The notes below the pieces were generated by a model. It was given only the letters and a program-made list of their open reading frames with translations. It ran no database searches and was not told where the DNA came from. A DNA stretch of 64,000 nt from Polynucleobacter sp. IMCC 30228 (lineage in GTDB: Bacteria; Pseudomonadota; Gammaproteobacteria; Burkholderiales; Burkholderiaceae). The position numbers were made by a program, and so were the translations under genes. The stretch's first letter is position 1; every line of letters starts with the position of its first letter. The stretch lies in NCBI RefSeq assembly GCF_021395205.1, contig NZ_JAJVCS010000001.1, positions 1-64,000 of the forward strand, written 5' to 3'. Shown piece by piece: positions 38,999 through 58,021 of the stretch.

Positions 38999-40684
38999 AT
39001 GAGTTGGTTTGCCTGCCCCTTGAATTTGCGTCTGAGATTACCGCTAAGGTGTATTTACTCTACTGTCATGGTAGGTCTAGTGGGCTCGTTTGTAATTACT
39101 GCAGCCCTTGCGCAAACCGGAGCGCAGCCAGCTTCTCCAAATGTCACCATTCAAGGTCAACCCGAAGCCATTACAAAACCCCGCTCAGGAATTCCTAAGC
39201 CACTAACAGCGGCTGACTTAACGGGCTTGCAAATTCCTCCCGATATGGTGGTGAGGCAAAACTTGGGGGTGCCAACTCAACCCAGCGCGTCTAATTTATT
39301 AAGTTCCAACCCATTTAATATTGCCCCTGGACAAGCAATTGATTTAATGGGGCTCTACCAAGAGGCTGCTTTTAGCGATCCCGTTTTAAATAGCGCCCGC
39401 TTTTTATATGAGTCAAAACAAGAATTATTTTGGCAGGGGCTCTCCGTACTCATGCCGCAAATTGTTGCCTCTCCCGGATTAACCCGCTACTACCAACATG
39501 CTGCCAATAATTCAGCGCTGCAAACCTTCACAGGTAATAGTCGCGTTTACGGACAACGAAATTATGCGGTCACTTTGACCCAGCCTTTATTCAATGCTAG
39601 TGCTTTTGAAGTATTTAGACAGGGCGACTTAAATACTAAAGTTGCTGATATGGGTTTTTACCAAGCCCAACAAGATTTAGTGTTACGCGTGTCGCAAGCT
39701 TATTTTGATGTGCTCTATAGCCAAGATAATGTGGCGTTATTTAAATCGAAAATTGGCTTGATTAAACAGCAGCTCAATGCTGCCAAAGCACGCTTTGAGG
39801 CTGGCCTAGCAACAATTGTGGATGTCAATATTGCTCAAGCAGGCTATGACTTAGCAATCTCTCAAGAAATTACTGCGCAAGCCGATTTAGTAGTGAAGCG
39901 GGGCATCTTAGAGCAGCTAGTAGGGCGGCCCGTACCAGCGCTAAAGCCGCTAGCTAAGGAAGCCAAAATTGACGGGGTGGTCAGGGATCCACGCGCCAAA
40001 GTGACAGAGGCATTACCAGCCCCATCCGAAAATATTAACCCGCAATTACCTCCCGGGCAAACTTTGAACGATTGGATTCATCAAGCTGAGAACGCCAATT
40101 TTGGGGTCTTGGGCGCCTTACTCAATGTGGATATTGCCTCAAGTAACTATCGCGCTGCTTTAGCAACCAATTACCCCACCCTCAATTTTGTTGGTTCTGC
40201 TGCATACAACAGTAATAATGGTGTGACCTTTAGTAATATTTCCGCTTCACAAAATATCTACAACAATACGGTAGCACTAAATTTAAATATTCCGATTTTC
40301 TCGGGTGGCTACAACTCTTCGCTGATTCGTCAAAATGCCGCGCTTGTAGATAAAGCCAAGTCGGACTATGACAATTTACGGCGTACGGCAGCACAAAATA
40401 CGCGCCAAGCTTTTACTGGATTTTATGGCGGTCTAGCGAGTGTCAAGGCCTACGAGGCGGCTGAACGCTCCACTACCTCTGCAGCTGAATCAAGCCAACT
40501 GGGTTTTGAGGTTGGCACCTTAATTAGTATTGATGTGTTGTTGGCATTTGACGCCCTGATTAACACTCGGCTGTCTTTAAATCAGGCTCGTTACAACACC
40601 ATCATGAATGCGCTGAAATTAAAATCGTATGCGGGTACCTTAACGGATTCGGACTTAACTAGCATCAATGGCTTGCTTAGATAA
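38999..40684 (+). CDS. TolC-family outer membrane efflux/secretion protein
   Basis: The 561-residue protein has a signal peptide (hydrophobic VGLVGSFVITAALA, cleavage near ALAQTG about residue 40), a roughly 75-residue Pro/Gln/Ser-rich linker, then an OEP domain with VDLVLRVSQAYFDVL-like helices, AKARFEAGLATIVDVNIAQAGY and ARYNTIMNALKLKSYAGTL. Such proteins form trimeric channels for type I secretion or efflux. No inner-membrane partner is adjacent. Its 3' end overlaps waaC by 30 bases, in opposite orientation. Confidence 0.88.
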   Translation: MSWFACPLNLRLRLPLRCIYSTVMVGLVGSFVITAALAQTGAQPASPNVTIQGQPEAITKPRSGIPKPLTAADLTGLQIPPDMVVRQNLGVPTQPSASNLLSSNPFNIAPGQAIDLMGLYQEAAFSDPVLNSARFLYESKQELFWQGLSVLMPQIVASPGLTRYYQHAANNSALQTFTGNSRVYGQRNYAVTLTQPLFNASAFEVFRQGDLNTKVADMGFYQAQQDLVLRVSQAYFDVLYSQDNVALFKSKIGLIKQQLNAAKARFEAGLATIVDVNIAQAGYDLAISQEITAQADLVVKRGILEQLVGRPVPALKPLAKEAKIDGVVRDPRAKVTEALPAPSENINPQLPPGQTLNDWIHQAENANFGVLGALLNVDIASSNYRAALATNYPTLNFVGSAAYNSNNGVTFSNISASQNIYNNTVALNLNIPIFSGGYNSSLIRQNAALVDKAKSDYDNLRRTAAQNTRQAFTGFYGGLASVKAYEAAERSTTSAAESSQLGFEVGTLISIDVLLAFDALINTRLSLNQARYNTIMNALKLKSYAGTLTDSDLTSINGLLR

Positions 40685-41728
40685 AGCGCTTTGGCTTGCT
40701 TTCAATAAGCGCTCAGCAACCGCGAGCACTGTTTTCGCCGCTGGTGGGTTTTTCAGATCACCCAAATTGCAAATCGCTTCTGACCAGTAGCCCTCCGTTT
40801 TCCATTTCGGTGAATCACAATATAGTTCAATCGTAGGTCTAGCTAAGACTGCGGCTAAATGCGTTAAGCCCGTGTCCACCCCAATGGTTAATTGGGCGCC
40901 AACGACGACAGCAAAAGCTTCTTTGATCGAAAACGCGGTTGGTACTACAGCGCCATCAATTTCTTTGGCAATGAGTTCACTGGTTAATTTTTCTGCTGCA
41001 CTGCCCCACGGCAAAATGATCTGCAAGCCTTGTTCGGCTAGCCCTTGACCTAAAGTAATCCAGTTTTTATTGGGCCAGCGTTTAGCCTCTCGAGCAGTCG
41101 CATGAAAAAATACCACGTAATTTTGGCTAATGCTATTTTGAGTGGCGGAGATTAAACCCTCGACCCATGCTTGGGGATAAAAATAGGGGGGTTGTTGCTG
41201 GCGATTCAGTAATGGCCAATCAAAAGCAGCACTCATAACCCAACGCGAACGATCAACTGCATGACATTGGCGAGGCACTTGCACGGCTTGCGTATAAAAA
41301 CGCCGAGCAATTGGCTCATAACCCGAGTATTCGGTGGCATTAGCGAGGCCTGCTACGACAGTAGTCGAGGTTTTCTTAGTCATGGCACAAACTAAAGCCG
41401 ACTTTAAAAGTCCTTGGGTTTCAATTACTACATCATAGGTCTGCGCTTGTAAGTGTTTACGAAAAGCAAAAAATTCCTGCCAGGTTTTTAAGCTGAAGAT
41501 ATTGTTTCTCCAGCGCCTTAACGCAATGGGGATAATGCGATCAATACCTCGCAAGCCATTACGCGAGCGCAAGGGCTCTAGTAAATCAAGATAGGCCTCT
41601 TCAACTACCCAATCAATTTGTGCCTCTGGAAGGTGTTCTCGCAAATCCCAAACGAGGGGTAGGTTATGTAAGACATCTCCTAAAGAAGATAACTTCACGA
41701 TCAAAATGCGGATGTGTGCTGAACTCAT
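40655..41728 (-). CDS. waaC: Lipopolysaccharide heptosyltransferase I
   Basis: The 357-residue GT9 protein begins IRILIVKLSSLGDVLHNLPLVWDL and has IDWVVEEAY, a VVIETQGLLKSALV segment, and the donor-binding GVDTGLTHLAAVLARPT. It adds the first ADP-heptose to Kdo in the LPS inner core. It ends the minus-strand rhamnose operon, 29 bases after rfbC. Confidence 0.92.
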   Translation of the reverse strand: MSSAHIRILIVKLSSLGDVLHNLPLVWDLREHLPEAQIDWVVEEAYLDLLEPLRSRNGLRGIDRIIPIALRRWRNNIFSLKTWQEFFAFRKHLQAQTYDVVIETQGLLKSALVCAMTKKTSTTVVAGLANATEYSGYEPIARRFYTQAVQVPRQCHAVDRSRWVMSAAFDWPLLNRQQQPPYFYPQAWVEGLISATQNSISQNYVVFFHATAREAKRWPNKNWITLGQGLAEQGLQIILPWGSAAEKLTSELIAKEIDGAVVPTAFSIKEAFAVVVGAQLTIGVDTGLTHLAAVLARPTIELYCDSPKWKTEGYWSEAICNLGDLKNPPAAKTVLAVAERLLKASQSALSKQAIDAS

Positions 41729-41757: not shown

Positions 41758-42315
41758 CTAGAATTTTGGCGCTTGATTCCACGCAAAGCCAGTTAAGTCT
41801 TTGGCATTCATAGTCGGCTCTATTCCCTCTGGAATGGGCCATACAACCCCTACCGTGGGATCATTCCAAGCTAAACAACGCTCACCTTGGGGGTAATAAT
41901 AATCAGTCGTCTTATACAGAAACTCAGCAGCATCCGAGAGCACAAAAAAACCATGGGCAAACCCTGCTGGAATCCACATTTGCCGATGATTTTGCGCGCT
42001 TAACTCTGCCCCGACCCATTTCCCAAAGTGGGCTGATGACTGGCGTAAATCAACTGCGACATCAAAGACTGCGCCGGCAGTAACGCGTACCAATTTACCT
42101 TGGGTTTTTTCTACTTGGTAATGCAAGCCGCGTAGCGTGTTCTTTTTCGAGAAAGATTGGTTATCTTGGACAAACTCGGCCTGAATACCCGTTGCCGCAA
42201 GAAACTGGGCTGCATTGAACGACTCATAAAACCAGCCCCGCTCATCGCCAAAGACTTTGGGTTCTAAAACTAAGACCTCAGGAATACGGGTTGGTGTTAC
42301 CAATAAATTACTCAT
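41758..42315 (-). CDS. rfbC: dTDP-4-dehydrorhamnose 3,5-epimerase
   Basis: The 185-residue cupin enzyme has EPKVFGDERGWFYESFN, NQSFSKKNTLRGLHYQ with the catalytic His, and AVDLRQSSAHFGKWVG and PAGFAHGFFVL. It is the third step in dTDP-L-rhamnose synthesis. The ATG at 42315 (MSNLLVTPTRI) is 14 bases after the rfbA stop; the frame opens further upstream inside rfbA. Confidence 0.95.
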   Translation of the reverse strand: MSNLLVTPTRIPEVLVLEPKVFGDERGWFYESFNAAQFLAATGIQAEFVQDNQSFSKKNTLRGLHYQVEKTQGKLVRVTAGAVFDVAVDLRQSSAHFGKWVGAELSAQNHRQMWIPAGFAHGFFVLSDAAEFLYKTTDYYYPQGERCLAWNDPTVGVVWPIPEGIEPTMNAKDLTGFAWNQAPKF

Positions 42316-42328
42316 GCGCCACTCATCC

Positions 42329-43210
42329 TCAGTCTTTTTCTTGCAAGATGCGTTGCAGATATTGACCGTAGCCACTTTTCATCATTTGGCTAGCGATTTT
42401 TTCAACGCCTGCGGCTGTAATCCATCCTTGCCGATAGGCAATTTCTTCTGGGCAAGCCACCATTAAACCTTGGCGTTTTTGTAAGGTGGCAATAAAACCT
42501 GCAGCATCTAATAAGGAATCGTGTGTGCCTGTATCTAGCCACGCAAAACCCCGGCCCATGATTTCAACATTGAGTTGACCTGCCTGCAAATAATGTCGAT
42601 TCACATCGGTAATTTCTAATTCACCACGCGCGCTCGGTTTAATTCCTGCGGCAATCTCACAGACTTGCGAGTCATAAAAATACAGGCCTGTAACCGCATA
42701 ATTACTACGCGGCTTGAGTGGCTTTTCGGCAATTGAAATGGCTTTGAACTGCGTATCAAATTCAACTACTCCATACCGTTCTGGATCTTGCACATGATAG
42801 GCAAAGACTGTGGCTCCCGTAGTTTGCCGATCGGCACGGTGTAATTGATTGACTAATTCATGGCCGTAAAAAATATTGTCACCCAAAACTAATGCGCTAG
42901 GGTCTTGGCCAATAAATGATTTCCCGAGAATAAATGCTTGGGCTAAGCCATCGGGCGAAGGTTGCACCTTATATTGAATTTGCAATCCCCATTGCGAGCC
43001 GTCGCCCAGCAACTCTTGAAAGCGAGGAGTATCGTGCGGAGTAGAAATTAATAAAACTTCCCGAATACCCGCAAGCATTAAGGTGCTTAAAGGGTAATAC
43101 ACCATGGGCTTGTCATAAATTGGCATCAGCTGTTTTGAAACAGCTTGGGTTACTGGGTATAAACGCGTACCCGAGCCCCCCGCTAAAATAATTCCCTTGC
43201 GCTTATTCAT
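42329..43210 (-). CDS. rfbA: Glucose-1-phosphate thymidylyltransferase
   Basis: The 293-residue enzyme makes dTDP-glucose, the first step of the pathway. Signatures: [22 protein letters not shown] near 5-26, [26 protein letters not shown] and [21 protein letters not shown]. Its start overlaps the rfbD stop by eight bases. Confidence 0.96.
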
Positions 43211-44183
43211 TTGACTTCATCATCTCTTGTTTACCCTGCTTTACTAACTGCTGAACATAATCAATCACGGCTGGCTGCCAATGAGGAAAGTCGGGAACGC
43301 CATTGGCACTCGCGGCTAATCGATCGGCAAAGACCCCTTTTAGCTTCGTATTAGCCATTTTAGAGTTGTTTGGTCGCGGGGCTGGAGTTGGGTAATCTTT
43401 AGTGGGAATGGGACGGATATTTGCTACTTGCAGTTTTAGGGTGGCGCCAGCGTCTAGCGCAGTTTGCACCACCAAACAAGCCAATTGATACCAGGTCGTT
43501 TCACCATCAGGTACAGCATGATAAATACCTGATGCAAATGGCTGAGCGATAAAGTCTAAACTTATTTGCGCTAACCAAGCTGCGCTAGTTGGCACCCCAA
43601 ATTGATCACTCACAATGGCTAGTTGCTCACGTTCTTTCGCCAAACGTAAAATGGTGCGAATAAAATTAGCGCCATCGCCATAGACCCAACTGGTTCTAAA
43701 AATTGCATAGTGGGGTGCTAATGCAATGATTGCTGCTTCTCCAGCAGCTTTACTTGCCCCATAAATGCTCAGTGGTGCTGGTAAATCAGTCTCTAGATAG
43801 GCGGCTTCTTTTTTACCGTCAAAAACATAATCGCTTGAGTAGTGTAATAAAGTTGCATTCGTTTTAGCGGCGTACTCGGCCATGATTTGCACTGCAGTAG
43901 CGTTAATCGCAAACGCGCGTTCTTTGTCGGTTTCAGCCCGATCGACTGCGGTATAGGCCGCAGCGTTAATAATGAGCTTAGGCTGCTGTTTTTTTAAAAG
44001 CTGTCCAAGTGCTAAGGGATTTTCTAAATCACAAGCGTTGGGCTCCTCATTGCTGCCAACGCCCCGCCCAATAAAAATAATATCTTGCTGTACATGATTA
44101 CTTAGGGCATTTTGAAACGCGCGCCCTAACTGCCCATTCTTTCCAAAAACCAGAATCTTACTAAATGAATGACTAAGCGACAT
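43203..44183 (-). CDS. rfbD: dTDP-4-dehydrorhamnose reductase
   Basis: The 326-residue SDR has [14 protein letters not shown] (NADPH loop), [22 protein letters not shown] and [11 protein letters not shown] with the catalytic Tyr/Lys. It does the last step to dTDP-L-rhamnose. It overlaps rfbB by 11 bases and rfbA by eight. Confidence 0.95.
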
Positions 44184-45234
44184 AATGCTGATTAATCCAA
44201 TCGCGGTAAGAGCCGCTTTGCACTCCAGCCACCCATTCCGGATTAGCTAGATACCACTCTACGGTTTTCCGAATGCCTGTAGCAAAAGTTTCCGCTGGCT
44301 TCCAGCCAAGTTCTCGCTCTAGCTTGCTCGCATCAATTGCATAGCGCCGATCATGCCCTGGCCGATCGGTTACAAAACGAATTTGCTCAGCATAAGATCC
44401 GCCGCTTGAGCGGGGTCTAAGCTCATCTAGAATCGAGCAAATCGTGTTGACGACCTCTAAGTTCGTTTTTTCATTCCAGCCACCCACGTTATAGGTTTCC
44501 CCCAGAGTCCCTTTTTCAAGTACACGTCGAATTGCCGCGCAATGATCACCCACATAAAGCCAATCGCGCACTTGCATGCCGTCACCATAAATTGGTAGCG
44601 GCTGACCGTTTAAGGCATTCAAAATTACTAGCGGAATCAGCTTCTCGGGAAAATGATAAGGTCCATAATTATTTGAACAATTGGTGGTGAGCACAGGTAA
44701 ACCATAGGTATGAAACCAGGCGCGTACTAAATGATCAGAGGCAGCCTTGGAAGCTGAGTAGGGGCTATTGGGTTCATAGGCCGTAGTTTCTTTAAACGCC
44801 GCAGCGCTTGCTCCTAATGAACCATATACCTCATCAGTAGATACATGTAAAAAGCGAAATTGCTGCTGCGCTTCAGTCGGTAATGAATTCCAATACGTAC
44901 GACTACATTCTAATAAATTAAAACTGCCCAAAATATTCGTTTGAATAAAATCAGCCGGCCCATGAATTGACCGATCGACATGGCTCTCGGCAGCAAAATT
45001 AATAATGGCACGAGGGCGATGCTCTTGGAGAAGATTAGCCACTAAAGTGCTATCGCCAATATCGCCTTGAATAAAAATATGACGGGGGTCTTTTTCGAGC
45101 GGGGCTAAGGTACTTAAATTACCTGCATAAGTCAGTTTGTCTAAATTAATAATACCTTCAGCCTTGGGGTTGGCAAGCCAATCCAAGACAAAATTACTGC
45201 CAATAAAACCTGCCCCACCAGTAACTACAATCAT
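44173..45234 (-). CDS. rfbB: dTDP-glucose 4,6-dehydratase
   Basis: The 353-residue SDR has [24 protein letters not shown], the active-site DEVYG and the [11 protein letters not shown] motif, and RDWLYVGDH. It performs the second step of dTDP-rhamnose synthesis. It is the first enzyme gene of the rfbBDAC set on the minus strand, 27 bases after the putative glycosyltransferase. Confidence 0.96.
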
Positions 45235-45261
45235 AATGACACGCCCAAATCTTATTTCAGT

Positions 45262-46170
45262 TTATTTAAGAAGATCAAGATACTTATTAAACCGTTTATG
45301 CCCAAATAGTAACCTGCCCAGCCATCGCATGACGCCGATTGTCCAAAAAGTGTGTTTTTTAGCAAGGGGAGGTGGTGGCGGATCAAGGTGACTAGCGCTA
45401 TTGATCAGGGCGCTATTAATATAAATTCGATAGCCTTGTTTGCGTAAATCAGCATGAAAAGCAATATGATCAGACTCCTCTTGCTCTGCCGCATTAACGC
45501 CACTATATCGACCAGCCAGAAAAGCCCCGCGGCGATAAATGCCCAGCCCACCAAATGCAGAGTCAACTTCGATCATGCCTTGATTAGCGTTTAAGTGAAC
45601 CTGCTTAGCCTGTACTGCTAAATTTTGGGCCGCTGACTCACCTAGGATGGGCTCTAGTTTATGCATCTGCACCATACAATCGACTGGACTCCAATCTGGG
45701 TGGCGCAAGGTCCAGACATCATAATAAGTATGCAACTGATTGGCCGTAATTACATCCCACTCTTCGGCTACCTCCCAGCATTGCGCAATCGATTGCGCGG
45801 AAATATGCCGATTAATGCCATCTAAATCGGCCATCGCAATAAAATCTACACCGGCATAGCGGGGATTATTTTGCACCTCTGTCACGATGTAATTACGCGC
45901 ATATGCCAAACGGGCCGTACGCATAGGTATCTGCTTGATTAATCTACCAAAGCTAATGTAATCAAAATTTGGTAAGCGTAATTTTAATGTCGCTAATTGT
46001 TGGATGGTGCCGTCATCCGAATCGCTTTCTACTACTAAGCCATGAATACACTTGAAGTCGCGCATGGCCTCATACAAAGCATCGAGCTCTTGGTTAATAT
46101 GGGCGGCAATATTCCGCGCTGGGCCAGCAATTAATATTTCTGCTTGATCTATCGGCTTTCGCTTTGACAT
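45262..46170 (-). CDS. Putative GT-A glycosyltransferase (CAP59-like)
   Basis: The 302-residue protein begins with EILIAGPARNIA and has VVESDSDDGT, an ADLDGIN site resembling the metal-binding DxD, and a FGGLGIYRRGAF segment. This is reminiscent of fungal CAP59-type mannosyltransferases (GT69-like) rather than classical GT2. A WDVITANQLHTYYDVWTLR stretch is also typical. Acceptor and donor are unknown. ATG at 46170 is preferred; a TTG at 46182 overlapping the preceding gene is possible. No membrane helix. Confidence 0.65.
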   Translation of the reverse strand: MSKRKPIDQAEILIAGPARNIAAHINQELDALYEAMRDFKCIHGLVVESDSDDGTIQQLATLKLRLPNFDYISFGRLIKQIPMRTARLAYARNYIVTEVQNNPRYAGVDFIAMADLDGINRHISAQSIAQCWEVAEEWDVITANQLHTYYDVWTLRHPDWSPVDCMVQMHKLEPILGESAAQNLAVQAKQVHLNANQGMIEVDSAFGGLGIYRRGAFLAGRYSGVNAAEQEESDHIAFHADLRKQGYRIYINSALINSASHLDPPPPPLAKKHTFWTIGVMRWLGRLLFGHKRFNKYLDLLK

Positions 46171-46178
46171 TGCCAAAC

Positions 46179-47258
46179 TCAAGTTAATGCAAAATCATGT
46201 TGAATGGAAGCAATAATCTTTTGAGCAAATGCTGCTGAACTAAACCCTTGAAATTGGGGAGATGCTAAAAATTGCTGACCCGCTATTTGGTATGCCTGAT
46301 AATCTTCTGCAGATAAATCCTTTAGAAAACTATAGAGTGCTCCGTAGGATTGAAATTGACGAAAATCAATAAAGCAATTTTTTGGAATGACTTTTTCTAC
46401 CTCAGGGTCACCCCAATAAATCGGTACACATCCCGCAAATAAACAGTCGAATATTTTTTCGGTAAGGTAGCCACGGATATCACGCGCATTTTCAAAGCAA
46501 ATGCTAAAGCGAGCTTGACTTAAGGCGGTAAATTTACTGTTTACCGGACCACCATAGCTTGGAAAAACGGCTTTGCCCATGAGAAAGGGCGGCACCTTAG
46601 CCAGACGATAGCGCATCTTTCCTAGCATACCAAAGCGCTTTTGGGGTACTTTCCACCCGTGTCCATACAAAACAAAATCGCTTGGTGCATTAGTCTCAAA
46701 CCAGCGAATAGCTTTTACTCGCTCTGAATACAATTCCCGCTCATCCCTGCAATTAGCATGCCGATTACTGGCAATTAAAATACAAAACTGAGGGCGTGCA
46801 CTAAAGCCTAAATTAACTACTTGATGTGGACTAAATTCAGCAGGCAGTGGATTTGGTATCGTCATTGCATGTAATTTTGCTTTAGCAAGCCCTAAGCCGA
46901 TTAGCGACTGTGGATTAGCTTCGAGTAAATTTTTATCCCAAGTAAAAATGCCATCAAACTGCTGCAAATACACAGCGTCTGCATTGGCTTGTACAGTTAA
47001 TTCAGTCTCAAAACGGATTAAATAATTTTTACCTTGACCTTGGGTAATCAGGGGGATTGACTCGATATAGAGATTGAAGTCAGGCTCTTTACCCTGACTA
47101 TGAATTACATCCAGCGTATGTAATTCAATGCCACAAGCTAATGCTTGCGCCTTTAATACACGGAAAGGCTCAAGGCAATCGTCCCGATTGCGCGGGCTTT
47201 GTGGGTTAAATAGATCGTCCTGACCTACCTCCCACCCGACAATACTTCCAATTAGCAT
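46179..47258 (-). CDS. Fucosyltransferase, GT10 family (alpha-1,3/1,4 type)
   Basis: The 359-residue protein has the GT10 donor-binding signature ENARDIRGYLTEKIFDCLFAGCVPIYWGDP near 270-300, followed by NCFIDFRQF. GT10 enzymes transfer L-fucose from GDP-fucose to GlcNAc (or glucose) in alpha-1,3/1,4 linkage; H. pylori FutA/B are the best known bacterial members. GDP-fucose is made by manC-gmd-fcl in the same locus. It is 94 bases from and divergent to a GT11 fucosyltransferase. Confidence 0.88.
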   Translation of the reverse strand: MLIGSIVGWEVGQDDLFNPQSPRNRDDCLEPFRVLKAQALACGIELHTLDVIHSQGKEPDFNLYIESIPLITQGQGKNYLIRFETELTVQANADAVYLQQFDGIFTWDKNLLEANPQSLIGLGLAKAKLHAMTIPNPLPAEFSPHQVVNLGFSARPQFCILIASNRHANCRDERELYSERVKAIRWFETNAPSDFVLYGHGWKVPQKRFGMLGKMRYRLAKVPPFLMGKAVFPSYGGPVNSKFTALSQARFSICFENARDIRGYLTEKIFDCLFAGCVPIYWGDPEVEKVIPKNCFIDFRQFQSYGALYSFLKDLSAEDYQAYQIAGQQFLASPQFQGFSSAAFAQKIIASIQHDFALT

Positions 47259-47352
47259 GAAGAGTTGCTCTATTTAAATTAATCTAAAATTACCTTGCTA
47301 ATAAAGCATAAAACTGTTGTAACACCTTACTTAGTGCTTTAATTATAGAGAT

Positions 47353-48255
47353 ATGACCATAACTATCCATCTTGTTGGCGGCCTTGGCAACCAAATGTTT
47401 CAATATGCCTTTGGCACAGCGCTAGCCCAACATTATCAAACCAATTTACTACTTGACGATTCTTGGTATGCACGCCTACCAGCTGCAGATACCGCAAGGC
47501 AGATGGATTTAATGTGCTTGAAAATTAGTAATACGCAATTCATCCCTCCGCAAAAGGAAGCTTTTAGCTTCATAAAATCAACCCGGCTTAAAAAATTATT
47601 ACAATCTTTTTTACCGAATGGTCCAGTCGTTCATCGTGAAAAAAAGGGGTTTTTTTTCGACCGTGCCGTTTTTACGCTTAACTCAGCTAACACGCAAAAT
47701 CACTTTTTTACGGGTTATTGGCAAGCCTTTAACTACATCGAGGCTATTCGCACACAGTTACAGGCTGAATTTCAGCCTCGTGCTGGGCTTAATCAGCACT
47801 ACCAATACTATCGCTCATTAATGCAATCTAGCCCTGCGGCAATGGTCCATGTACGGCGTGGTGATTACATCCATTTACCTGCTGCAGCGCAATTTCACGG
47901 TGCCCTATCTTTGCATTACTACCTTGCAGGCATGCGCTTAATTCTGGAGCGTGAACCCAATACTCAGTTCTTCTTATTTTCTGATGACCTGCCATGGTGT
48001 AAAGAAAATTTCCCTCGTGATTTTAAAATTACATATATAGACCGAAGTGATGCGGCGGATGCAGACGCTCAAGAAATAGATCTAATGACTTATTGCCAGC
48101 ACTTTATTATTGCGAATAGTTCTTTTAGCTGGTGGGGCGCATGGTTAAGAAAAAATATCGACGGCTTGGTGATCGCCCCAAATCGCTGGATTTCTGATAC
48201 AAGCCTAGACCTAAGTGATTTATTACCAGCCAATTGGCAAAGACTACCCGCATAA
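47353..48255 (+). CDS. Fucosyltransferase, GT11 family (alpha-1,2 type)
   Basis: The 300-residue protein has the three GT11 motifs: GGLGNQMFQYAFG (9-21), HVRRGDY (166-172) and NSSFSWWGAWL (255-265). GT11 enzymes attach L-fucose alpha-1,2 to galactose, making H-type structures. Codons 96-103 (bases 47638-47661) contain A7-G4-T8, and GAA AAA AAG reads as the A-AAA-AAG slippery heptamer in the phase used for -1 frameshifting. The -1 frame stops at 47679-47681, giving a truncated product. The gene is intact here. It stands alone on the plus strand. Confidence 0.92.
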   Translation: MTITIHLVGGLGNQMFQYAFGTALAQHYQTNLLLDDSWYARLPAADTARQMDLMCLKISNTQFIPPQKEAFSFIKSTRLKKLLQSFLPNGPVVHREKKGFFFDRAVFTLNSANTQNHFFTGYWQAFNYIEAIRTQLQAEFQPRAGLNQHYQYYRSLMQSSPAAMVHVRRGDYIHLPAAAQFHGALSLHYYLAGMRLILEREPNTQFFLFSDDLPWCKENFPRDFKITYIDRSDAADADAQEIDLMTYCQHFIIANSSFSWWGAWLRKNIDGLVIAPNRWISDTSLDLSDLLPANWQRLPA

Positions 48256-48285
48256 ATTACGTGCAGTTAACTACATGCAGCTGAT

Positions 48286-49269
48286 TTATGTTTCTTGTCG
48301 ACCAATCCAACTGGCTGAAATTGCCACTAGTAAACGCTCTAAGCGCGTTAACGGGGTGAGCAAGCCATTTTGACGAAATTGGAAGCGGGCATAAAGCTCA
48401 TAGTTTGCCCCAATTGATATATTACGAATACGTTGATTTAAGATGCGCATAAAGCGAATACCAAAAACCAAGCGCTCTTTAACGGGCAAAGCCCGTGGTA
48501 GAAATGTAATGGGGATACCTAGTGACTCAAGGTAGTGTGATTGTGACTGCTTAAACACATTTTTTGCTGCTTCCATGTGATTAATGCTGGTTTGAGTTGG
48601 GTGTAAACGGTAAATAATGAGTTTCTTATTTAGATTTGCAAAACGATATCCAGCTAAAGCAATTTCTGTCCATAAAGAATAATCTTCTGCATGTAAGGAC
48701 GTTTTTTTGTAGGGCAAACGTTGAAAAATTTCCAATTTACCCATTACTGCTGGATTGCAAATAGGACTGCAAACAGTTAGTAGTGCTTGAATATCGGCAT
48801 TACTATGGCGCTGTTTAGATGGCTTAATGGCGCCATTACCCTGATTCAGGGTCCAATGATCGGCGCCACATAAATCAGCAATGCCTTGTTCTAAAAAATT
48901 AACTTGTAGTTCAAGGCGATTCGGAAAGGCCCGATCGTCAGCGTCTAATAAAGCTAAATACTTCCCCCGTGCTAATTGAGCAATATGATTACGGGTGGCA
49001 ATTAATCCGAGATTTTGATCAGAAAAAATTTTGACAATTCGCGTATCGTGATAGCGATTGATAATTTCGCGGGTTTGATCGGTAGAGCCATCATCGATAA
49101 TAATCAGTTCAAAATTGGTGTAAGTTTGCGAAAGAATACTTTCAATTGCTTCGCCAATATAGCGTTCAGCATTAAACGCTGGCATTGAAACGCTTACCAA
49201 TGGGCCTAAAACGCTTGGCTTATCCTCTGCGGCCTGTAGAAATGAATTGTTTAGTTCAATTGCATCCAT
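48286..49269 (-). CDS. Glycosyltransferase family 2
   Basis: The 327-residue protein has VSVSMPAFNAERYIGEAIESIL, LIIIDDGSTDQT, LLDADDRAFPNRL and a C-terminal region with LHAEDYSLWTEIALAGYRF. This is a standard inverting GT2 with DxD. Donor and acceptor are not predictable. It lies 12 bases after the DUF6492 gene on the same strand. Confidence 0.9.
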   Translation of the reverse strand: MDAIELNNSFLQAAEDKPSVLGPLVSVSMPAFNAERYIGEAIESILSQTYTNFELIIIDDGSTDQTREIINRYHDTRIVKIFSDQNLGLIATRNHIAQLARGKYLALLDADDRAFPNRLELQVNFLEQGIADLCGADHWTLNQGNGAIKPSKQRHSNADIQALLTVCSPICNPAVMGKLEIFQRLPYKKTSLHAEDYSLWTEIALAGYRFANLNKKLIIYRLHPTQTSINHMEAAKNVFKQSQSHYLESLGIPITFLPRALPVKERLVFGIRFMRILNQRIRNISIGANYELYARFQFRQNGLLTPLTRLERLLVAISASWIGRQET

Positions 49270-49280
49270 ACATATTCAGC

Positions 49281-50195
49281 TTAAAAATAGCTTTTAATGT
49301 AGCGCAAAAATCGTTTGACCGATTTCAGCAATCTTGAGGGTAATGATTTATTACCTACCCCATAATCGAGCTCGACTTCCCAATTGGATTGATAAATTAC
49401 CCCTAAAAAATTCTGCTTTAATTTTGCTTCGGTTTCGCCTAAACGTTGCGCCGTATAGTATTGCCAGTCGTAGTGATAAATGCGAAATAAAGGTTCAATC
49501 ATGCGTATGGGAATGGCCTGAAAATTCAGTAAGGCCTCACCATAGAACAAAGTTTCAGGGTATTCGGGTGTAACGGCATCCCATAAAGTAATGCCTTTAG
49601 GCATCAAATACTGTTCATCGAGTGATTGCCATACTTTAGCCGACCAGATAAATGGCGCAGGAGCACAATAATATTGGGGGCCTTCCCGACCAAATAATTG
49701 CTGTACCCGCATCGCCTCTTCACGTAAATTCGATTCCACTTTGGTATAGCCACGGTTGGTAGCCAATTGAAATAATTCTTTGTTTTGATGCAAAACAGTA
49801 TAGGGATAGCCATCGCTAGCTAAAAAATCGGTCTTGCCAAAATCACGAATAAAAATACTATCTGAATCAATACAAAGATAGTTATCGGCTAAACCTAAAC
49901 GCCAGAACTCGGCTTTAATGATTGCTTGGCTTAAGCCTCCAGGCATATCTAGCTGCACATCTTTAGAAGCGCGCGGATTTGCCGCAATAATGGCTTCATC
50001 GGCGATCCAGGTAAAACTGAAGCTTTGCCCATCTTTGCCTAGCACTTCTAAAAGTAATTCACGATCGGCTGTAGGTGTAGAAATATAAAACGGTAACTGG
50101 TCGCGATTGTGTTTTTGTAAGGAAATTAATAAGCGCTTAACGCGCAGAAAATCGCGGCGGTATGATTTACAGTAGAGCACCATGCTTTGGGTCAT
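49281..50195 (-). CDS. DUF6492-like protein (possible glycosyltransferase)
   Basis: The 304-residue protein begins MVLYCKSYRRDFLRVKRLL and has LPFYISTPTADRELL, GGLSQAIIKAEFWRLGLAD and YLCIDSDSIFIRDF, a DxD-like site. This matches DUF6492, a family found in glycan loci with a GT-A-like core. Function is unproven. It follows galE with a 12-base gap. Confidence 0.7.
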   Translation of the reverse strand: MTQSMVLYCKSYRRDFLRVKRLLISLQKHNRDQLPFYISTPTADRELLLEVLGKDGQSFSFTWIADEAIIAANPRASKDVQLDMPGGLSQAIIKAEFWRLGLADNYLCIDSDSIFIRDFGKTDFLASDGYPYTVLHQNKELFQLATNRGYTKVESNLREEAMRVQQLFGREGPQYYCAPAPFIWSAKVWQSLDEQYLMPKGITLWDAVTPEYPETLFYGEALLNFQAIPIRMIEPLFRIYHYDWQYYTAQRLGETEAKLKQNFLGVIYQSNWEVELDYGVGNKSLPSRLLKSVKRFLRYIKSYF

Positions 50196-50207
50196 TCTGC
50201 CTAGACC

Positions 50208-51221
50208 TTATTCATTTTTATAGCCTTGAGGATTTTGCGATTGCCAGCGCCAGCTATCAACGCACATTTGCTCAATACCACGAGAGGCTTTCCAGCCAAG
50301 CTGTTGTGCGGCTAAATGGGGGTCTGCATAGCAACTTGCAATATCGCCAGCACGCCTAGCTACTACTTGATAAGGTATTGCGCGCCCTACTGCTTGCTCG
50401 TAAGCACGTAATACATCCATCACGCTGTAACCCAAGCCAGTGCCTAAATTGACGGTAAGGGAAGGCTTGTCATCCAATAAATAATCGATTGCCCGCACAT
50501 GTCCTTGAGCTAAGTCAACCACATGGATGTAATCGCGCACCCCCGTTCCATCGGGTGTAGGCCAATCGTTACCATACACATTGAGTACGGGTAATTTACC
50601 AATGGCTACTTGCGCCACAATGGGAGATAAATTATTCGGAATGCCCAGTGGATCTTCACCAATTAAACCAGACTCATGCGCACCAATGGGGTTGAAATAA
50701 CGCAAGTAGGCAATATGCCAACTTGGGTCAGCAATTTCTAAATCACGCAGAATTTGCTCACTCATGAGTTTGGTTTGACCATAGGGGTTTGTCGGCCGTA
50801 ATGCTGCCTGCTCATCAATGGGAACGACATCGGGATCGCCATAAACTGTTGCTGAAGAACTAAATACAAATCGCTTGCAATGGTGCTCTTGCATTACCTG
50901 TAAAACCGTTAATAAGCCGAGCAAATTATTTTGGTAATAGGCTAAGGGTTTGGCGACTGATTCGCCGACCGCTTTTAGTGCCGCAAAATGAATGACCCCT
51001 TCAATAGGATATTGATTAAACAGCGCTGCCATAAAAATGGGGTCACAAACATCCCCTTCCATAAAATTAGGAACTTGTTTAGCGAGTCCTTCAAGCCGCC
51101 GCAGTACTTGAGGGCTCGAATTCACAAAATTATCGATCCCGATTACCTCGTGCCCTGCTAGCAGCAGTTCAAGCCATGTATGCGAGCCGATATAACCCGT
51201 TGCGCCTGTTAAAAGAATCAT
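50208..51221 (-). CDS. galE: UDP-glucose 4-epimerase
   Basis: The 337-residue SDR has LTGATGYIGSHTWLEL, GVIHFAALKAVGESV, FSSSATVYGDPD and NPYGQTKLMSEQIL with the catalytic Tyr/Lys, then RYFNPIGAHESG. It interconverts UDP-Glc and UDP-Gal, supplying galactose likely used as the acceptor of alpha-1,2-fucosylation (inference). First gene of a three-gene minus-strand set. Confidence 0.95.
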   Translation of the reverse strand: MILLTGATGYIGSHTWLELLLAGHEVIGIDNFVNSSPQVLRRLEGLAKQVPNFMEGDVCDPIFMAALFNQYPIEGVIHFAALKAVGESVAKPLAYYQNNLLGLLTVLQVMQEHHCKRFVFSSSATVYGDPDVVPIDEQAALRPTNPYGQTKLMSEQILRDLEIADPSWHIAYLRYFNPIGAHESGLIGEDPLGIPNNLSPIVAQVAIGKLPVLNVYGNDWPTPDGTGVRDYIHVVDLAQGHVRAIDYLLDDKPSLTVNLGTGLGYSVMDVLRAYEQAVGRAIPYQVVARRAGDIASCYADPHLAAQQLGWKASRGIEQMCVDSWRWQSQNPQGYKNE

Positions 51222-51295
51222 GTCTTACCAATACCTTCATTAAGCAATTTAGTAATTTACTTATTATCCCCGATTACCCTTTATCATTTGTTTTT

Positions 51296-52678
51296 ATGAG
51301 GTCGTCCACTGCCAACAGCTCAAGCCCTATTTTGGACTTTATCCTGATCGCCATAAGCAGTATTTTATTGTTGATTTGGCCCATCAGTAATACGATTGCC
51401 CTACGTAATGGATTGCTCATTGCTGGCACTATATTGGCGCTAATCGTCTTTAAGCGTTTTTCTTGCACCAAAAACCTAATCCGTTTTTTACCCATCAGTC
51501 TGAGTATTGGCATGTTCATTTGGGTTTTATTGCATTTCTTGCTGTTCAGTCAAGACCCTATTTTGCAACTGCATGAGCTCGGTAGTACTTGGAAGCGAAG
51601 CTTGTTGGCCTTTCTCATCGGTGGAGCAACTGGCTTAGTGCTGCGCCAGCGCCCGCAGCAAACTAACTTCCTGTGGCTTGGCATCTATGCCAGTTTCTTA
51701 TTCTTACTGGTTGACTACTTAGTCGCCTTTACACAAACGGGACAAGTATTTATGCCCCGTTATTATTTTGTCAGCCCCTTTGGTAACAAGATTAATACCG
51801 TAATCATGGGCATCCTATTTATTAGTGCAGTTTGCGGCGCGGCTGCTTTTCAGTATCAACAAATCAGTTTAAATAAAATGAAGCTCAACTGGGGCTTATC
51901 TGCCTTTTGGCTTTCGGGTGTTCTGCTTATTTTATTTTCTTACACCACCATTATTGATACGCGCAATGGAATTGGTATCGCTACTATTCTATTAATTGTC
52001 TGGATTATGATTATTTTGCTCGCTAAATTGCGCAGCATAAAAAATAGATTGGGCACTAATTTCAATGTAAGTTATTGGAAATCAATACTCCTTATAGCGC
52101 TGCCTTTGCTTGTTTTACTATTTTTTATTCAAGGTCATCTACAAATTAATCGGGGTTGGAATCATTTTTTTGAAGATTTACACATTGCCACGCAAATTGA
52201 TCGTTACCCCCAATGGCAGAATACGCAGCAGCTCGGTTATCCTCAAACTGCTAGCGGTGAAATGGTGTATCCCAATAATTACGAACGCGCTGCCTGGGCG
52301 ACCGCAGGGATTGATTCGATTACTAAAAATCCTTTGGGCTTTGGCTTGCTTGAGCACTCATTAGAGAGAGTCATTAAACAATCTTATCCTAATGCCACTA
52401 TTAAATCAGCTCACAGCGCTTGGATTGATTATGGGCTAGCTTTTGGTATTCCTGGTTTGCTATTAACTCTGGGCGCTTTACTTAGCATCATCGGCAGCGC
52501 CTTGAGGCAGCTAAGTGCAAGCACTTCGCCCAATGCACTGATGGCGATTTGGGTCGCATCTGGTTTATTACTTACTTTTACCGTAGCTGAGGTCAGCAGT
52601 AAACATTCAATTGAAATATTATTTTTCTGTATTGCACTCTTGAGTGCAATGATTTTGCCAGCAACCGATTCTACTTAG
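51296..52678 (+). CDS. O-antigen ligase/polymerase family membrane protein (Wzy_C-like)
   Basis: The product of about 460 residues has some ten to twelve hydrophobic helices, with a large periplasmic loop (about 270-350) containing RAAWATAGIDSITKNPLGFG and HSAWIDYGLAFGIPG, as in WaaL/Wzy_C proteins, where an H-x-x-x-D/Y loop is active. It would polymerise or ligate undecaprenyl-linked glycan. Polymerase versus ligase cannot be told from sequence alone. The start at 51296 gives MRSSTANSS; the open frame extends to 51176 over the galE promoter region. Confidence 0.75.
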   Translation: MRSSTANSSSPILDFILIAISSILLLIWPISNTIALRNGLLIAGTILALIVFKRFSCTKNLIRFLPISLSIGMFIWVLLHFLLFSQDPILQLHELGSTWKRSLLAFLIGGATGLVLRQRPQQTNFLWLGIYASFLFLLVDYLVAFTQTGQVFMPRYYFVSPFGNKINTVIMGILFISAVCGAAAFQYQQISLNKMKLNWGLSAFWLSGVLLILFSYTTIIDTRNGIGIATILLIVWIMIILLAKLRSIKNRLGTNFNVSYWKSILLIALPLLVLLFFIQGHLQINRGWNHFFEDLHIATQIDRYPQWQNTQQLGYPQTASGEMVYPNNYERAAWATAGIDSITKNPLGFGLLEHSLERVIKQSYPNATIKSAHSAWIDYGLAFGIPGLLLTLGALLSIIGSALRQLSASTSPNALMAIWVASGLLLTFTVAEVSSKHSIEILFFCIALLSAMILPATDST

Positions 52679-54069
52679 TTGAGCTCGCCAACGGCATGCA
52701 AAATCGTTTGTACAGCTTGATCAACTCCCAGCGGTTTTGCGCTAATGACGGGCATTTGCTGCTGCTGCCAAGCGGCGTAAATTTGCTCAAGCGTGGCGAT
52801 AATCGCACTTGGATTACTTTGCTCGGCAATATAAGCTTGATGCTCAACCAAGAGCTGATTAAAGGTGGGGTTGCGGTGGGTTAAAGCCAAAATTGGTCGC
52901 TGCGCCCAAAAATATTCATAGGCTTTTGAAGGTATATATTCAGCACACCACTCGCTATTACCATGGAGCAAAAGCAATACATCAGCTTCGCGCATCAGTT
53001 GATTGACTTTTTCGCGACCCGATTGTTGACTAGCAGAATCAAACTCTAAACGCCCGTGTGTGATCACAATATCGCTTAGCCGATGATCTTGGATCGCGCG
53101 AGCTGAAAGTGCATCTAAGTCAGAGCCATAAATATCGATCCGTAAATGCGTTCTTGCCTCTGGATGCCGAGAAAAAAACGCTGGCAATGCATTGAGCAGT
53201 CCTTGTAATGAGCGAGTATGCGATAAAGAGCCAAAATGAGCCAAATGCAATTGTCCACTAGCCCTCCAGGCAAGCGGCGCAGTCTCAGTCCTTGGTGGGT
53301 TTGCCCCTGGCAAGACAACTAAGCCTTTTAACTTGCCGCGCGCATCAGGCACTAATAAGTTAGGGTTACGCTTTTGTGCATAACTTAAAGCACCTGGTGT
53401 AAACCACCAAACCCGATCTGCATGTAAACAAATTTGCTTTTCTAGCTGAAAGCGAAAATGGGGTTCACGCTCACTTGGGGCATTGAGTCCATCATCCTGC
53501 TCATTACTGCGCATGACTAAGGGGTCATGAATTTCTGCCAGCCACTTTAGCTGCGCGTTTTTGCCTGCATAGCGCTTAATCCACATTGCTGCTAAATGAG
53601 CTGACCAAGCTCCGCCAGTGGAATACACCAGATCAATTTTGCCAGCGCGGGCTAACTGAATACCATGCCAGGCTGCTGGCAATGCCCATGACCATTGACT
53701 TGAATAACCAGCAATGAGTCGCTCGAGAGCAATAAAAGGCGCCAGCAATGCCGATAATGAAACCGTCAAGACTTTATAAATAAAGCCTCGTCCACACCGC
53801 ATAGCAAGCCAATGGCGAAAATCAAAGCGTAAACCTGCAGGCCCCCAAGGGAAAAATTGCCGATGCGTAAAGCGTTGATCAGCAGAACCAGTAACCGCAC
53901 TAAAGACTGTTAACTCTAGACCAGCAGCCAATAAATAAGGCACCTTATCAGTAATCGTTTGACTTGCGGCACGTCCATCCATATTAAAACCATGCGCCAG
54001 AATTAACCAACGTTTGGGTAAGTACTCTAGTTCGGTGACGTCCATGGTGGAGCTCATGGTCGAGTTCAT
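52675..54069 (-). CDS. Glycosyltransferase, GT4/GT-B type
   Basis: The 464-residue protein has a GT-B-type layout with an N-terminal domain containing SAVTGSADQRFTHRQF and DLVYSTGGAWSAHL, and a C-terminal domain with LHLAHFGSLSHTRSLQGLLNAL and ADVLLLLHGNSEWCAEYIPSKAYEYFWA, the glutamate-containing nucleotide-sugar site of retaining GT4-like enzymes. Donor unknown. It shares its stop codon region with the convergent ligase gene (four bases). Confidence 0.8.
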   Translation of the reverse strand: MNSTMSSTMDVTELEYLPKRWLILAHGFNMDGRAASQTITDKVPYLLAAGLELTVFSAVTGSADQRFTHRQFFPWGPAGLRFDFRHWLAMRCGRGFIYKVLTVSLSALLAPFIALERLIAGYSSQWSWALPAAWHGIQLARAGKIDLVYSTGGAWSAHLAAMWIKRYAGKNAQLKWLAEIHDPLVMRSNEQDDGLNAPSEREPHFRFQLEKQICLHADRVWWFTPGALSYAQKRNPNLLVPDARGKLKGLVVLPGANPPRTETAPLAWRASGQLHLAHFGSLSHTRSLQGLLNALPAFFSRHPEARTHLRIDIYGSDLDALSARAIQDHRLSDIVITHGRLEFDSASQQSGREKVNQLMREADVLLLLHGNSEWCAEYIPSKAYEYFWAQRPILALTHRNPTFNQLLVEHQAYIAEQSNPSAIIATLEQIYAAWQQQQMPVISAKPLGVDQAVQTILHAVGELN

Positions 54070-54082
54070 TGGCGCCTTAACT

Positions 54083-55414
54083 TTAATATGCGTTCTTATT
54101 TACAAAGCCGCGAAAGATCGTTAAGAAAATAATCTTGAAGTCGAGCCAGAGCGACCAATTTTCAATGTAATATAAATCGTGCTCAATACGGGCATGCAAA
54201 TCGGTATCCCCCCGCCAGCCATGGATTTGGGCCCAGCCCGTGATTCCTGCTTTTACTAAATGCTTCTTCATGTAGTCTGGAATTTCTTGTTTAAATTGCT
54301 CAACAAAAATCGGGCGTTCGGGGCGTGGGCCCACAATCGACATTTGGCCTTGTAAGACATTAAAAAACTGTGGCAATTCATCCAGGCTAGTGGCGCGCAT
54401 CCATTTTGAAAAACCCGTAACGGATTTATTTGCTGAACCACCCCACTGCACCTGCTCTTCTTCTAGATTTGTAGGCATGCTGCGAAACTTCAGAATTTCA
54501 AAAACTTCGCCATTCCAGCCAATGCGTTCTTGGCGATAAAAAATTGGACCTGGTGAGCTGACCTTGACGCAGATAGCCAAAATTAAAATGAGGGGGCTGA
54601 TCAAGATTAAAATCAGGGTTGCCAACACGTAATCTTCTACTGTTTTGATAAATAGATTTACCCCAGCCATCGGGGTGCCGTATAAATCAATCATCTGCAT
54701 CCCCAACACCTCACTAACGCCATGATTAATTAAGCGAAATGAAAACCAATCGGGCACAAAGCGAATGGTCGCGGTACTTAATTTGAGATGCTCCATGACC
54801 ATGCGCATTTGACTACCATCGCCCATCGGTAAGGCGAGCCAAATTTCATTCAGCGGTTGTAAAGCCAGCGCAGTTAACTGCTGCGGATTCAATTCTCTTA
54901 AATGGGTTTGAATACGATAGCCAGACCATCTCGAAGATTCAATGCGAGTGACTAATTCTTCGGCGGTTGAGCCAGATCCAATAATGGCAATGTGGCGCAG
55001 ATTTACGCCTTTGGCACGATACTGACGCAACAAAATATAGCTCACTAAACGACTACTACATAGCACCAACAAACTACCGATAGCCCAAGACAATAACCAC
55101 AAACGAGAATACATTTCCGTTGACTTGCTAAATACCAACCAGATCAAAATTAAAATCCAGGTTTTTAAAACGCCCGCGGCAACTTGACCGAATAAAGCCC
55201 ATAAATTACCACCGCGCCATGAACGATAGGCGCCATTAGTCAAAACTAAATAGGCCAGACTGGCCAGCACCATTAAAGCGGTGTAGCGCTGTAAATCTAA
55301 ACCTGGGTCTTTAAAATATTGCAAAACAAAAAATGTCACTAAACCCACGACATTAATCATCACAAAATCGAAGAGACGAATTAAATAGGAATTAATTAAA
55401 AAAGAGGCTGCCAT
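54083..55414 (-). CDS. Polyprenyl sugar-1-phosphate transferase (WcaJ/WbaP-type, initiating)
   Basis: The 443-residue protein has about four or five N-terminal helices, a CoA-binding-like domain with HIAIIGSGSTAEELV, and a C-terminal sugar-transferase domain with SSPGPIFYRQERIG, LKFRSM, TSLDELPQFFNVLQGQMSIVGPRPE and the end NKNAY. This is the complete PHPT architecture that starts glycan synthesis on undecaprenyl phosphate. Which sugar is used (glucose, galactose or other) is unknown. It follows the GT9 gene by 29 bases. Confidence 0.92.
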   Translation of the reverse strand: MAASFLINSYLIRLFDFVMINVVGLVTFFVLQYFKDPGLDLQRYTALMVLASLAYLVLTNGAYRSWRGGNLWALFGQVAAGVLKTWILILIWLVFSKSTEMYSRLWLLSWAIGSLLVLCSSRLVSYILLRQYRAKGVNLRHIAIIGSGSTAEELVTRIESSRWSGYRIQTHLRELNPQQLTALALQPLNEIWLALPMGDGSQMRMVMEHLKLSTATIRFVPDWFSFRLINHGVSEVLGMQMIDLYGTPMAGVNLFIKTVEDYVLATLILILISPLILILAICVKVSSPGPIFYRQERIGWNGEVFEILKFRSMPTNLEEEQVQWGGSANKSVTGFSKWMRATSLDELPQFFNVLQGQMSIVGPRPERPIFVEQFKQEIPDYMKKHLVKAGITGWAQIHGWRGDTDLHARIEHDLYYIENWSLWLDFKIIFLTIFRGFVNKNAY

Positions 55415-56929: not shown

Positions 56930-58021
56930 ATGGCAAAATCAAAAGTAGCCCTAATTACTGGAATTACAGGCCAAGATGGCGCTTATTTAGCTGAATTCTT
57001 ACTGCGTAAGGGTTATGAAGTGCATGGCATTAAGCGCCGTGCCTCGCTCTTTAATACCGACCGCATCGATCACCTCTATCACGACCCCCACATTGAGGGC
57101 TCTAAATTAACCCTGCACCATGGTGACCTCACCGATTCATCGTGCCTTATTCGCATTATTCAACAAACCCAGCCTGATGAGCTCTATAACTTAGCCGCGC
57201 AGTCGCATGTCGCTGTCTCTTTTGAAGAGCCAGAGTACACCGCTAATTCAGATGCTTTAGGCGCCCTGCGTTTATTAGAAGCAATTCGGATTTTGAAGTT
57301 AGAGAAAAAAACCCGCTTTTATCAAGCCTCAACCTCCGAGCTCTATGGCTTAGTACAAGAAATTCCCCAAAAAGAAACCACGCCTTTTTATCCCCGTAGT
57401 CCCTATGCCGTGGCTAAGCTCTACGCCTACTGGATTACCGTGAACTACCGTGAGGCTTATGGCATGTATGCCTGTAACGGCATTCTTTTTAATCATGAGA
57501 GCCCGATTCGCGGCGAAACGTTTGTCACCCGCAAAATTACCCGTGCCTTAGCGCGTATTAAATTAGGCGTACAAGAATGTTTATACCTTGGTAATCTTGA
57601 TGCTAAACGCGACTGGGGTCATGCCCGCGATTATGTTGAAATGCAATGGCTAATGTTGCAACAAGAAGTTGCTGAAGATTATGTGATTGCAACCGGCGTG
57701 CAATTTAGTGTGCGTGAGTTCATTAACTTAGCTGCCGCAGAGTTAGGCCTGAAAATTACCTGGCAAGGCACGGGCGTCAATGAAAAAGGCTTTGATAGTA
57801 AGGGCAAATGTATTGTGGCCGTAGACCCCCGTTATTTCCGTCCCACTGAAGTCGAAACCCTTTTGGGTGATGCCACTAAAGCCAAAGAAAAGCTGGGCTG
57901 GGTACCGCGTACCTCATTTGCCGATTTAGTCAAAGAGATGGTGCGTGAAGACCTTCGCGGCGCCGAACGCGACGAACTCGTGAAAAAACATGGCTATACC
58001 ACCCTGGAGCGCAATGAATAA
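56930..58021 (+). CDS. gmd: GDP-mannose 4,6-dehydratase
   Basis: The 363-residue SDR has [61 protein letters not shown] and [12 protein letters not shown] with the catalytic Tyr/Lys, then [15 protein letters not shown]. It converts GDP-mannose to GDP-4-keto-6-deoxymannose. The fcl gene overlaps its end by eight bases. Confidence 0.97.

Follow-up and report, generated by a model that had tools for sequence, protein, structure and literature searches.

A head-to-head pair of GT10 and GT11 fucosyltransferase genes with a predicted bidirectional promoter in a Polynucleobacter surface-glycan locus

The window analysed here, a stretch of 64 000 nucleotides at the beginning of a contig of Polynucleobacter sp. 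IMCC 30228, contains two genes of the GT10 and GT11 fucosyltransferase families that lie head to head and are separated by 94 bp. The GT10 gene (46179..47258, minus strand) encodes 359 amino acids, and the GT11 gene (47353..48255, plus strand), which is inverted with respect to both its neighbours, encodes 300. An earlier note on this DNA had described the two genes as back to back with this gap; its coordinates and strands are correct, and both proteins score above the Pfam cut-offs of their families. It had also placed manC, gmd, fcl and galE in the same locus, and this too stands: manC, gmd and galE exceed their NCBIfam cut-offs, while fcl is recognized by a match in the PDB.

The GT10 side of the locus runs along the minus strand. 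It contains waaC, for LPS heptosyltransferase I (40655..41728; TIGR02193, 310 bits, cut-off 185), adjoined by rmlC and then rmlA, rmlD and rmlB, the genes for dTDP-L-rhamnose (41758..45234; TIGR01221, TIGR01207, TIGR01214 and TIGR01181, all above cut-off). Between rmlB and the GT10 gene there is a putative glycosyltransferase (45262..46182, minus strand) with a sub-threshold resemblance to CAP59/GT69 (PF11735, E 0.17), present in 10 of the 18 loci that carry the pair (see below). On the other side a GT2 glycosyltransferase gene (48286..49269, minus strand; PF00535, 4e-34) is convergent with GT11, its end 30 bp from the GT11 end. It is followed on the same strand by the gene for a DUF6492 protein (49281..50195; PF20102, 1.3e-6), kept in all 18 pair loci at 55–93% identity to that of the window and perhaps itself a glycosyltransferase, maybe of an unnamed family, and by galE (50208..51221; TIGR01179, 414 bits, cut-off 262).

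A membrane protein of the Wzy_C family, either a polymerase or an O-antigen ligase, is encoded on the plus strand (51176..52678; PF04932, E 1.0e-9). This assignment comes from one tool only, as the genome search gave a PF04932 match above cut-off at 51938–52468 and hmmscan of the open reading frame (ORF) gave no family. As called, the 5′ ends of this ORF and of galE share 46 bases, and the true start of the ORF may be further downstream. The minus strand then encodes a putative glycosyltransferase (52675..54069) that has no significant family match, is GT4-like by reading only, and has homologues in other pair loci; a WcaJ-type undecaprenyl-phosphate glucose phosphotransferase (54083..55414; TIGR03023, 449 bits, cut-off 411); and a GT9 glycosyltransferase (55444..56796; PF01075, 3.9e-25). 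The GDP-fucose genes are on the plus strand: gmd (56930..58021; TIGR01472, 595 bits, cut-off 415), fcl, for GDP-fucose synthase (57990..58955), and manC (58969..60426; TIGR01479, 517 bits, cut-off 373). The fcl product falls below the cut-off of NF047922 (481 bits against 500); its PDB match is E. coli GDP-fucose synthetase (1bsv, E 3.1e-114). Adjoining manC is an SGNH/AlgX-like protein (60442–61629) with weak family matches that could acetylate the glycan.

The GT10 protein matches PF00852 with an E value of 3.4e-13 (50.1 bits, Pfam cut-off 23.9), and has the Glyco_transf_10 C-terminal domain of CAZy family GT10. Residues 219–317 match H. pylori FucT in the PDB by sequence. E256, N257, Y264, T266, E267 and K268 are invariant across an alignment of 66 sequences, comprising the window protein and 65 of 73 GT10 candidates. 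Structural prediction, proposed in the earlier note as a check, gives confident models on fucosyltransferase folds for both enzymes. The GT10 model, built on the 66-sequence alignment, has a mean pLDDT of 95.0, and the Foldseek matches ranked 1–9 are all GT10 enzymes. In VIA it aligns with H. pylori FucT (2nzx) with Z = 18.0, rmsd 3.4 over 270 aligned residues and 21% identity. Non-GT10 glycosyltransferase families are tied in Z in this comparison (18.2 to 15.8 over 50 rows), and the highest identities, 18–22%, are in the GT10 rows. Thus the nearest solved folds are those of GT10 enzymes by Foldseek, and by VIA with ties in Z. The predicted linkage is α-1,3/4.

GT11 enzymes are marked by the motif H-x-R-R-G-D-Y, present in the window protein as HVRRGDY within a Glyco_transf_11 domain (PF01531, E 2.2e-29, 103.1 bits, Pfam cut-off 23.9). 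H166, R168, R169 and D171 of this motif are invariant in 33 sequences (the window protein and 32 of 33 GT11 candidates), and G170 and Y172 are found in at least 90%. The model built on this alignment has a mean pLDDT of 89.0. In VIA rows 1–43 are fucosyltransferases of other families, the closest folds being Arabidopsis FUT1 (Z = 15.4) and NodZ (Z = 15.1), followed by a GT9 enzyme at 10.6. A sequence search of the PDB gave no match at E 0.001, a GT11 profile gave chance-level matches only (E 0.24 and 0.73), and NCBIfam gave no match to either the GT10 or the GT11 protein at E 0.01. We predict an α-1,2 linkage for GT11. HhFT2, another GT11 enzyme, is α-1,3 rather than α-1,2 (PMC4202792).

An A7-G4-T8 stretch in GT11 was considered as a site of phase variation and is not supported, since the T8 run is not conserved in L071 and L082 and 11 similar runs occur elsewhere in the window. 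L071 and L082 keep the A run of the window gene, at lengths of 7 and 8. Across 15 GT11 alleles no run exceeds 8 bases, the longest runs lie at differing places and there is no common tract; nor were tandem repeats found in 46100–48300.

How widespread is the pair? Among 150 genomes, including that of the window, GT10 is found in 52, GT11 in 45 and both in 30. The search for neighbouring pairs in other Polynucleobacter genomes, suggested in the earlier note, finds them adjacent and head to head in 18 of the 150, all of this one genus; in the other 12 of the 30 genomes with both families they are not head to head. Seen against these frequencies the pair is less exceptional than the earlier note had supposed. 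The core order GT10, GT11, GT2, DUF6492 is found in 18 of 18, with rmlB on the GT10 side (G085 has one extra ORF between), and the recurrence of the pair in this arrangement shows that the adjacency is not chance. Named Polynucleobacter relatives have the same pair in 15 of 16 close loci, and the sixteenth, L088, begins near a contig end and so could not show its GT11. A literature search joining Polynucleobacter with fucosyltransferase gave no match.

In a midpoint-rooted tree of the 66 GT10 proteins the head-to-head Polynucleobacter sequences form one clade; L128, also Polynucleobacter, lies elsewhere, and GT10 proteins associated with ColD (discussed below) occur in both other groups. Distances among the GT10 proteins correlate with those among the GT11 proteins (rho = 0.76); the p value of 0.005 is the minimum possible with 199 permutations. 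Distances for rmlB also correlate with those of the pair (rho = 0.26 and 0.38), so that part of the correlation is shared ancestry. In G083 and G020 a PF13524 glycosyltransferase occupies the place of GT10 while GT11 and a conserved block preceding it remain, and the pair is therefore not obligatory.

The 18 loci take two forms. In the long form, found in 10, the core is followed by galE and then, contig permitting, by the Wzy_C protein, WcaJ, GT9, gmd, fcl and manC. In the other eight, which are compact, DUF6492 is followed by a putative glycosyltransferase and then pyrB, and the stretch up to pyrB contains neither wcaJ nor gmd nor a polymerase gene. Six of these eight have waaC next to rmlC; in G059 something else takes its place, and the G085 sequence stops short of it. 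The fcl gene is present in 16 of the 18 pair genomes, elsewhere in the genome for the compact ones, and the two genomes without it are 83 and 81% complete. The compact form points to LPS core or LOS. The long form, with WcaJ and the Wzy_C protein, could equally serve a core, an O-antigen or an exopolysaccharide. Flippase profiles PF01943 and PF14667 have no match in the genome of the window, and a profile of Wzx-like proteins gave none there while finding the G005 control. PF13440 matches a single frame there, of 524 residues; 17 of the 18 genomes have a PF13440 match, mostly of about this size, and the protein is probably MurJ. PF01943 matches are present in four of the 18 pair genomes (G039, G057, G070 and G081). 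The Wzx-like proteins of L099 and L101 likewise escaped Pfam, so that the genome of the window may have a flippase all the same.

In all 18 genomes the GT11 end lies −11 to 30 bp from that of GT2, and a scan of the window showed nothing resembling a terminator where the two genes meet. Compact loci run in one direction except for GT11 and, in G085, one further gene; long-form loci also have the Wzy_C gene inverted. An inverted gene inside a co-directional run is the arrangement of a noncontiguous operon.

Comparison of closely related loci suggests that this part of the locus has been replaced. The window is 84–98% identical to G061 throughout. Against G001, identity drops from 88 to 56% at position 47.2 kb; against G037, the 5′ part of GT10 is itself only 72% identical. 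Both G001 and G037 then have identities to the window of 54–60% in GT11, 60–73% in GT2, 71–84% in DUF6492 and 72–88% in galE, returning to 98–100% in a last bin of only 49 bases. Over the same stretch G001 and G037 are 84–98% identical to each other. The simplest reading is an allelic exchange of ∼4 kb that would begin at the GT10/GT11 junction, at the predicted promoter. The 5′ part of GT10 in L066 (G037) is a second divergent stretch, 70–77% identical to the other three genomes, which are 83–88% identical to each other.

The junction contains a conserved block (47333..47352) in which −10 elements, predicted as such, overlap on both strands. The plus-strand element, TG-n-TTTAAT at 47335–47343, faces GT11, and the minus-strand element, TATAAT at 47347–47342, faces GT10. 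The intergenic DNA upstream of GT11 aligns only in its last ∼20 bases. In 24 of 25 sequences TG-n-T(T/C)TAAT lies on the plus strand 9 bases before the start codon, and the minus-strand TATAAT, the better match to consensus, is intact in 23. L096 keeps the plus element and has lost the minus TATAAT; G059 has weaker forms of both, TTTGAT and GATAAT. Positions −25 to −1 carry 1.19 bits of information on average (14 representatives), those further upstream 0.33. The control starts of GT10, GT2, DUF6492 and rmlB have 0.47–0.67 bits in 10 genomes, some of the GT10 starts being mechanical upstream ones.

Seventeen of the 18 genomes have a single copy of the block, and a reversed-pattern control gave 0. 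It is thus not supported as a regulon motif. As the pattern was drawn from the same sequences, and one of 21 bases would seldom recur in any case, the information lies solely in its absence elsewhere. A promoter scan of 44000–53000 gave 24 sites against 21.7 in shuffled sequence, the minus-strand site scoring 10 of 12, joint best with one other; terminator-like sites numbered 6 against 9.9. Neither scan carries weight by itself, and the case for a promoter therefore rests on conservation rather than on the scan. We judged it unlikely that the block is coding, as an N-terminal extension of GT10, because the intergenic lengths differ modulo 3 (94, 97, 95, 75, 69, 74, 76 and 79 bp). Against this, a frame from an upstream start runs through the block in G001, G007, G037 and L166.

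Opposed, overlapping and conserved −10 elements between divergent genes are the mark of a bidirectional promoter, and most likely GT10 and GT11 are both started from this one short element. The usual spacing from −10 element to start site is 7 bases, which would place the starts at ∼47350 for GT11 and ∼47335 for GT10, 15 bp apart. The predicted leaders are 3 bases for GT11 and 77 for GT10, so that the GT11 mRNA would most likely be nearly leaderless. There is a real, if lesser, chance that the block serves GT11 alone, as its promoter or near-leaderless start, and that the minus-strand TATAAT is the by-product of a near-palindrome; L096, with the plus element only, and the block staying with GT11 where GT10 is replaced would both agree with this. 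The integrity of TATAAT in 23 of 25 sequences, its better fit to consensus and its joint best score of 10 of 12 in the 44000–53000 scan argue for a function on the GT10 side as well.

GT10 and GT11 occur together in other arrangements. We analysed 64 further loci encoding a GT10 relative of 32–41% identity, of which L128 is from Polynucleobacter, L099 and L100 come from the same strain, and three (L105, L116 and L160) found no confirmation with the GT10 profile. GT11 is found in the fetched stretch of 21 (18 of them at E < 1e-60), and in none of these 21 are the two genes adjacent and head to head. The commonest layout, in nine of 21, is GT10, a Wzx-like protein and GT11 on a single strand; in five GT10 and GT11 are directly consecutive on one strand. 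A ColD-like ORF is present in 18 of the 64, nine of which are among the 21 loci with GT11, and the ColD-like protein of L101 matches ColD in the PDB (1.3e-161). Polynucleobacter genomes G002, G005, G008 and G010 have ColD at 74–82% identity to the L101 protein, so that GDP-colitose is probably a product of this genus as well. GT10 and GT11 are on the same strand in G002 and G005, while G008 and G010 are without GT10.

Colitose was considered as donor for the window pair, and rejected. The 18 head-to-head genomes have no ColD match above 36% identity; none lies near the window pair, the best match in its own genome being 32% identical and on another contig, and fcl has its PDB match. As the genome lacks a close ColD, L-fucose is the likely donor. 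The GT10/GT11 pair looks like a general capping module, carrying colitose in some clusters and fucose here. V. cholerae O139 has a colitose analogue of Lewis b.

What, then, might the locus make? We think it probable that in this Polynucleobacter surface-glycan locus GT10 and GT11 each add L-fucose to the same outer oligosaccharide, likely that of LPS. GDP-fucose made by ManC, Gmd and Fcl would provide the donor for both enzymes, each would cap the common oligosaccharide with one fucose, and the capped oligosaccharide would most likely sit on LPS. We infer a common acceptor for the two enzymes, and an attachment of the fucosylated glycan to LPS from the presence of waaC in the locus and from the compact form with neither initiator nor polymerase. 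That the enzymes act on different glycans, LPS and exopolysaccharide for example, and are neighbours since the locus collects glycosyltransferases, seems to us unlikely. GT10 can be replaced while GT11 stays, a block with GT11 and without GT10 has apparently been exchanged, and in 12 of the 30 genomes encoding both families the two lie in some other arrangement, all of which would suit separate acceptors; yet the pair is kept in 18 genomes, and the pairing recurs elsewhere in other layouts.

The earlier note suggested a Lewis x/y-type glycan, and this has partial support: GT10, GT11, the GDP-fucose genes and galE are all present. We nevertheless doubt a true Lewis structure, in which GT10 would act α-1,3/4 on GlcNAc and GT11 α-1,2 on the Gal of LacNAc, as in H. 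pylori. The H. pylori LacNAc galactosyltransferase HP0826 belongs to family GT25, which has no match in the genome of the window or in 17 of the 18 pair genomes; only G082 matched, and no control genome did. The two G082 matches (G082:C391:2357-2872 and G082:C95:1454-1972) lie within ∼0.4 kb of further GT10 matches, and there may be a Lewis-like combination in a second locus of the genus. Furthermore, no LacNAc Gal or GlcNAc transferases were identified in the window locus, rhamnose genes adjoin the pair, the initiating enzyme of the long form is of the glucose-1-phosphate (WcaJ) family, and a GT11 can be α-1,3 (PMC4202792). H. pylori makes its Lewis O-antigen fucosylation with FutA/FutB and FutC, which favours a Lewis structure here, and it depends on dedicated Gal and GlcNAc transferases to build its LacNAc chain (PMC12342981). 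LacNAc could be made by another family than GT25.

If the common-cap reading is right, one promoter couples the two enzymes that provide a freshwater genus with its fucose cap. This would be a compact model of surface-sugar variation without long phase-variable repeats, and it would suggest that GT10/GT11 pairs, with fucose here and in other clusters probably colitose, form a general capping module and do not signal host mimicry. Taken by itself, a polysaccharide locus with two fucosyltransferases is an ordinary find in this genus. What is new is the prediction of a bidirectional promoter, together with an apparent exchange at that very junction, and the pair is more interesting for its regulation than for its chemistry. 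GT10 and GT11 may compete for transcription, and a role of the fucose decoration in evading phages or protists, as the earlier note proposed, is plausible. One might go further, and suppose that a promoter occupied by polymerase in one orientation at a time, with GT2 read-through antisense to GT11, would let activation of one direction repress the other, giving clonal variety of fucosylation without DNA change, while recombination at the junction would swap GT11 alleles between lineages. Such a two-level diversifier against phages or protists seems to us rather improbable. According to a study of bidirectional promoters, opposing polymerases are unable to bind such a promoter together. The same study reports that basal activity was low at the promoters it examined, and that the two directions interfered little with each other as long as neither was activated (PMC12825309), which makes the diversifier less probable.

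Among the nearest parallels is H. pylori, where FutA/FutB (GT10) and FutC (GT11), members of the same two families, serve one LPS, and whose FucT is matched by the window GT10 model, at ∼21% identity in structural alignment. The H. pylori fucosyltransferase has heptad repeats; in contrast no tandem repeats were found in 46100–48300 of the window, and no GT25 in its genome. The H. pylori genes are switched by homopolymer tracts, unlike the 15 GT11 alleles here with no run above 8 bases, and are apart by locus number (HP0379, HP0651 and HP0093/0094; PMC12342981), whereas the window genes are adjacent. The GDP-colitose clusters (L097, L101, L107, L136, L157 and, in Polynucleobacter, G005) similarly have GT10 and GT11 in one cluster. 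There the genes are on the same strand with a Wzx-like protein between them and ColD present; the window genes are head to head, without ColD or a Wzx of that kind.

In its organization the locus resembles the noncontiguous operons, which have an inverted gene in a co-directional run and almost no spacing between convergent ends (PMC7154746). It differs in that GT10 seems to have its own predicted promoter, and in that the Wzy_C gene of the long form is inverted too. The predicted 15-bp spacing of start sites departs from the 18, 10 and 23 bp common in E. coli bidirectional promoters, but in the overlap of opposite-strand −10 elements between divergent genes the junction is like those promoters, as PMC12825309 describes them.
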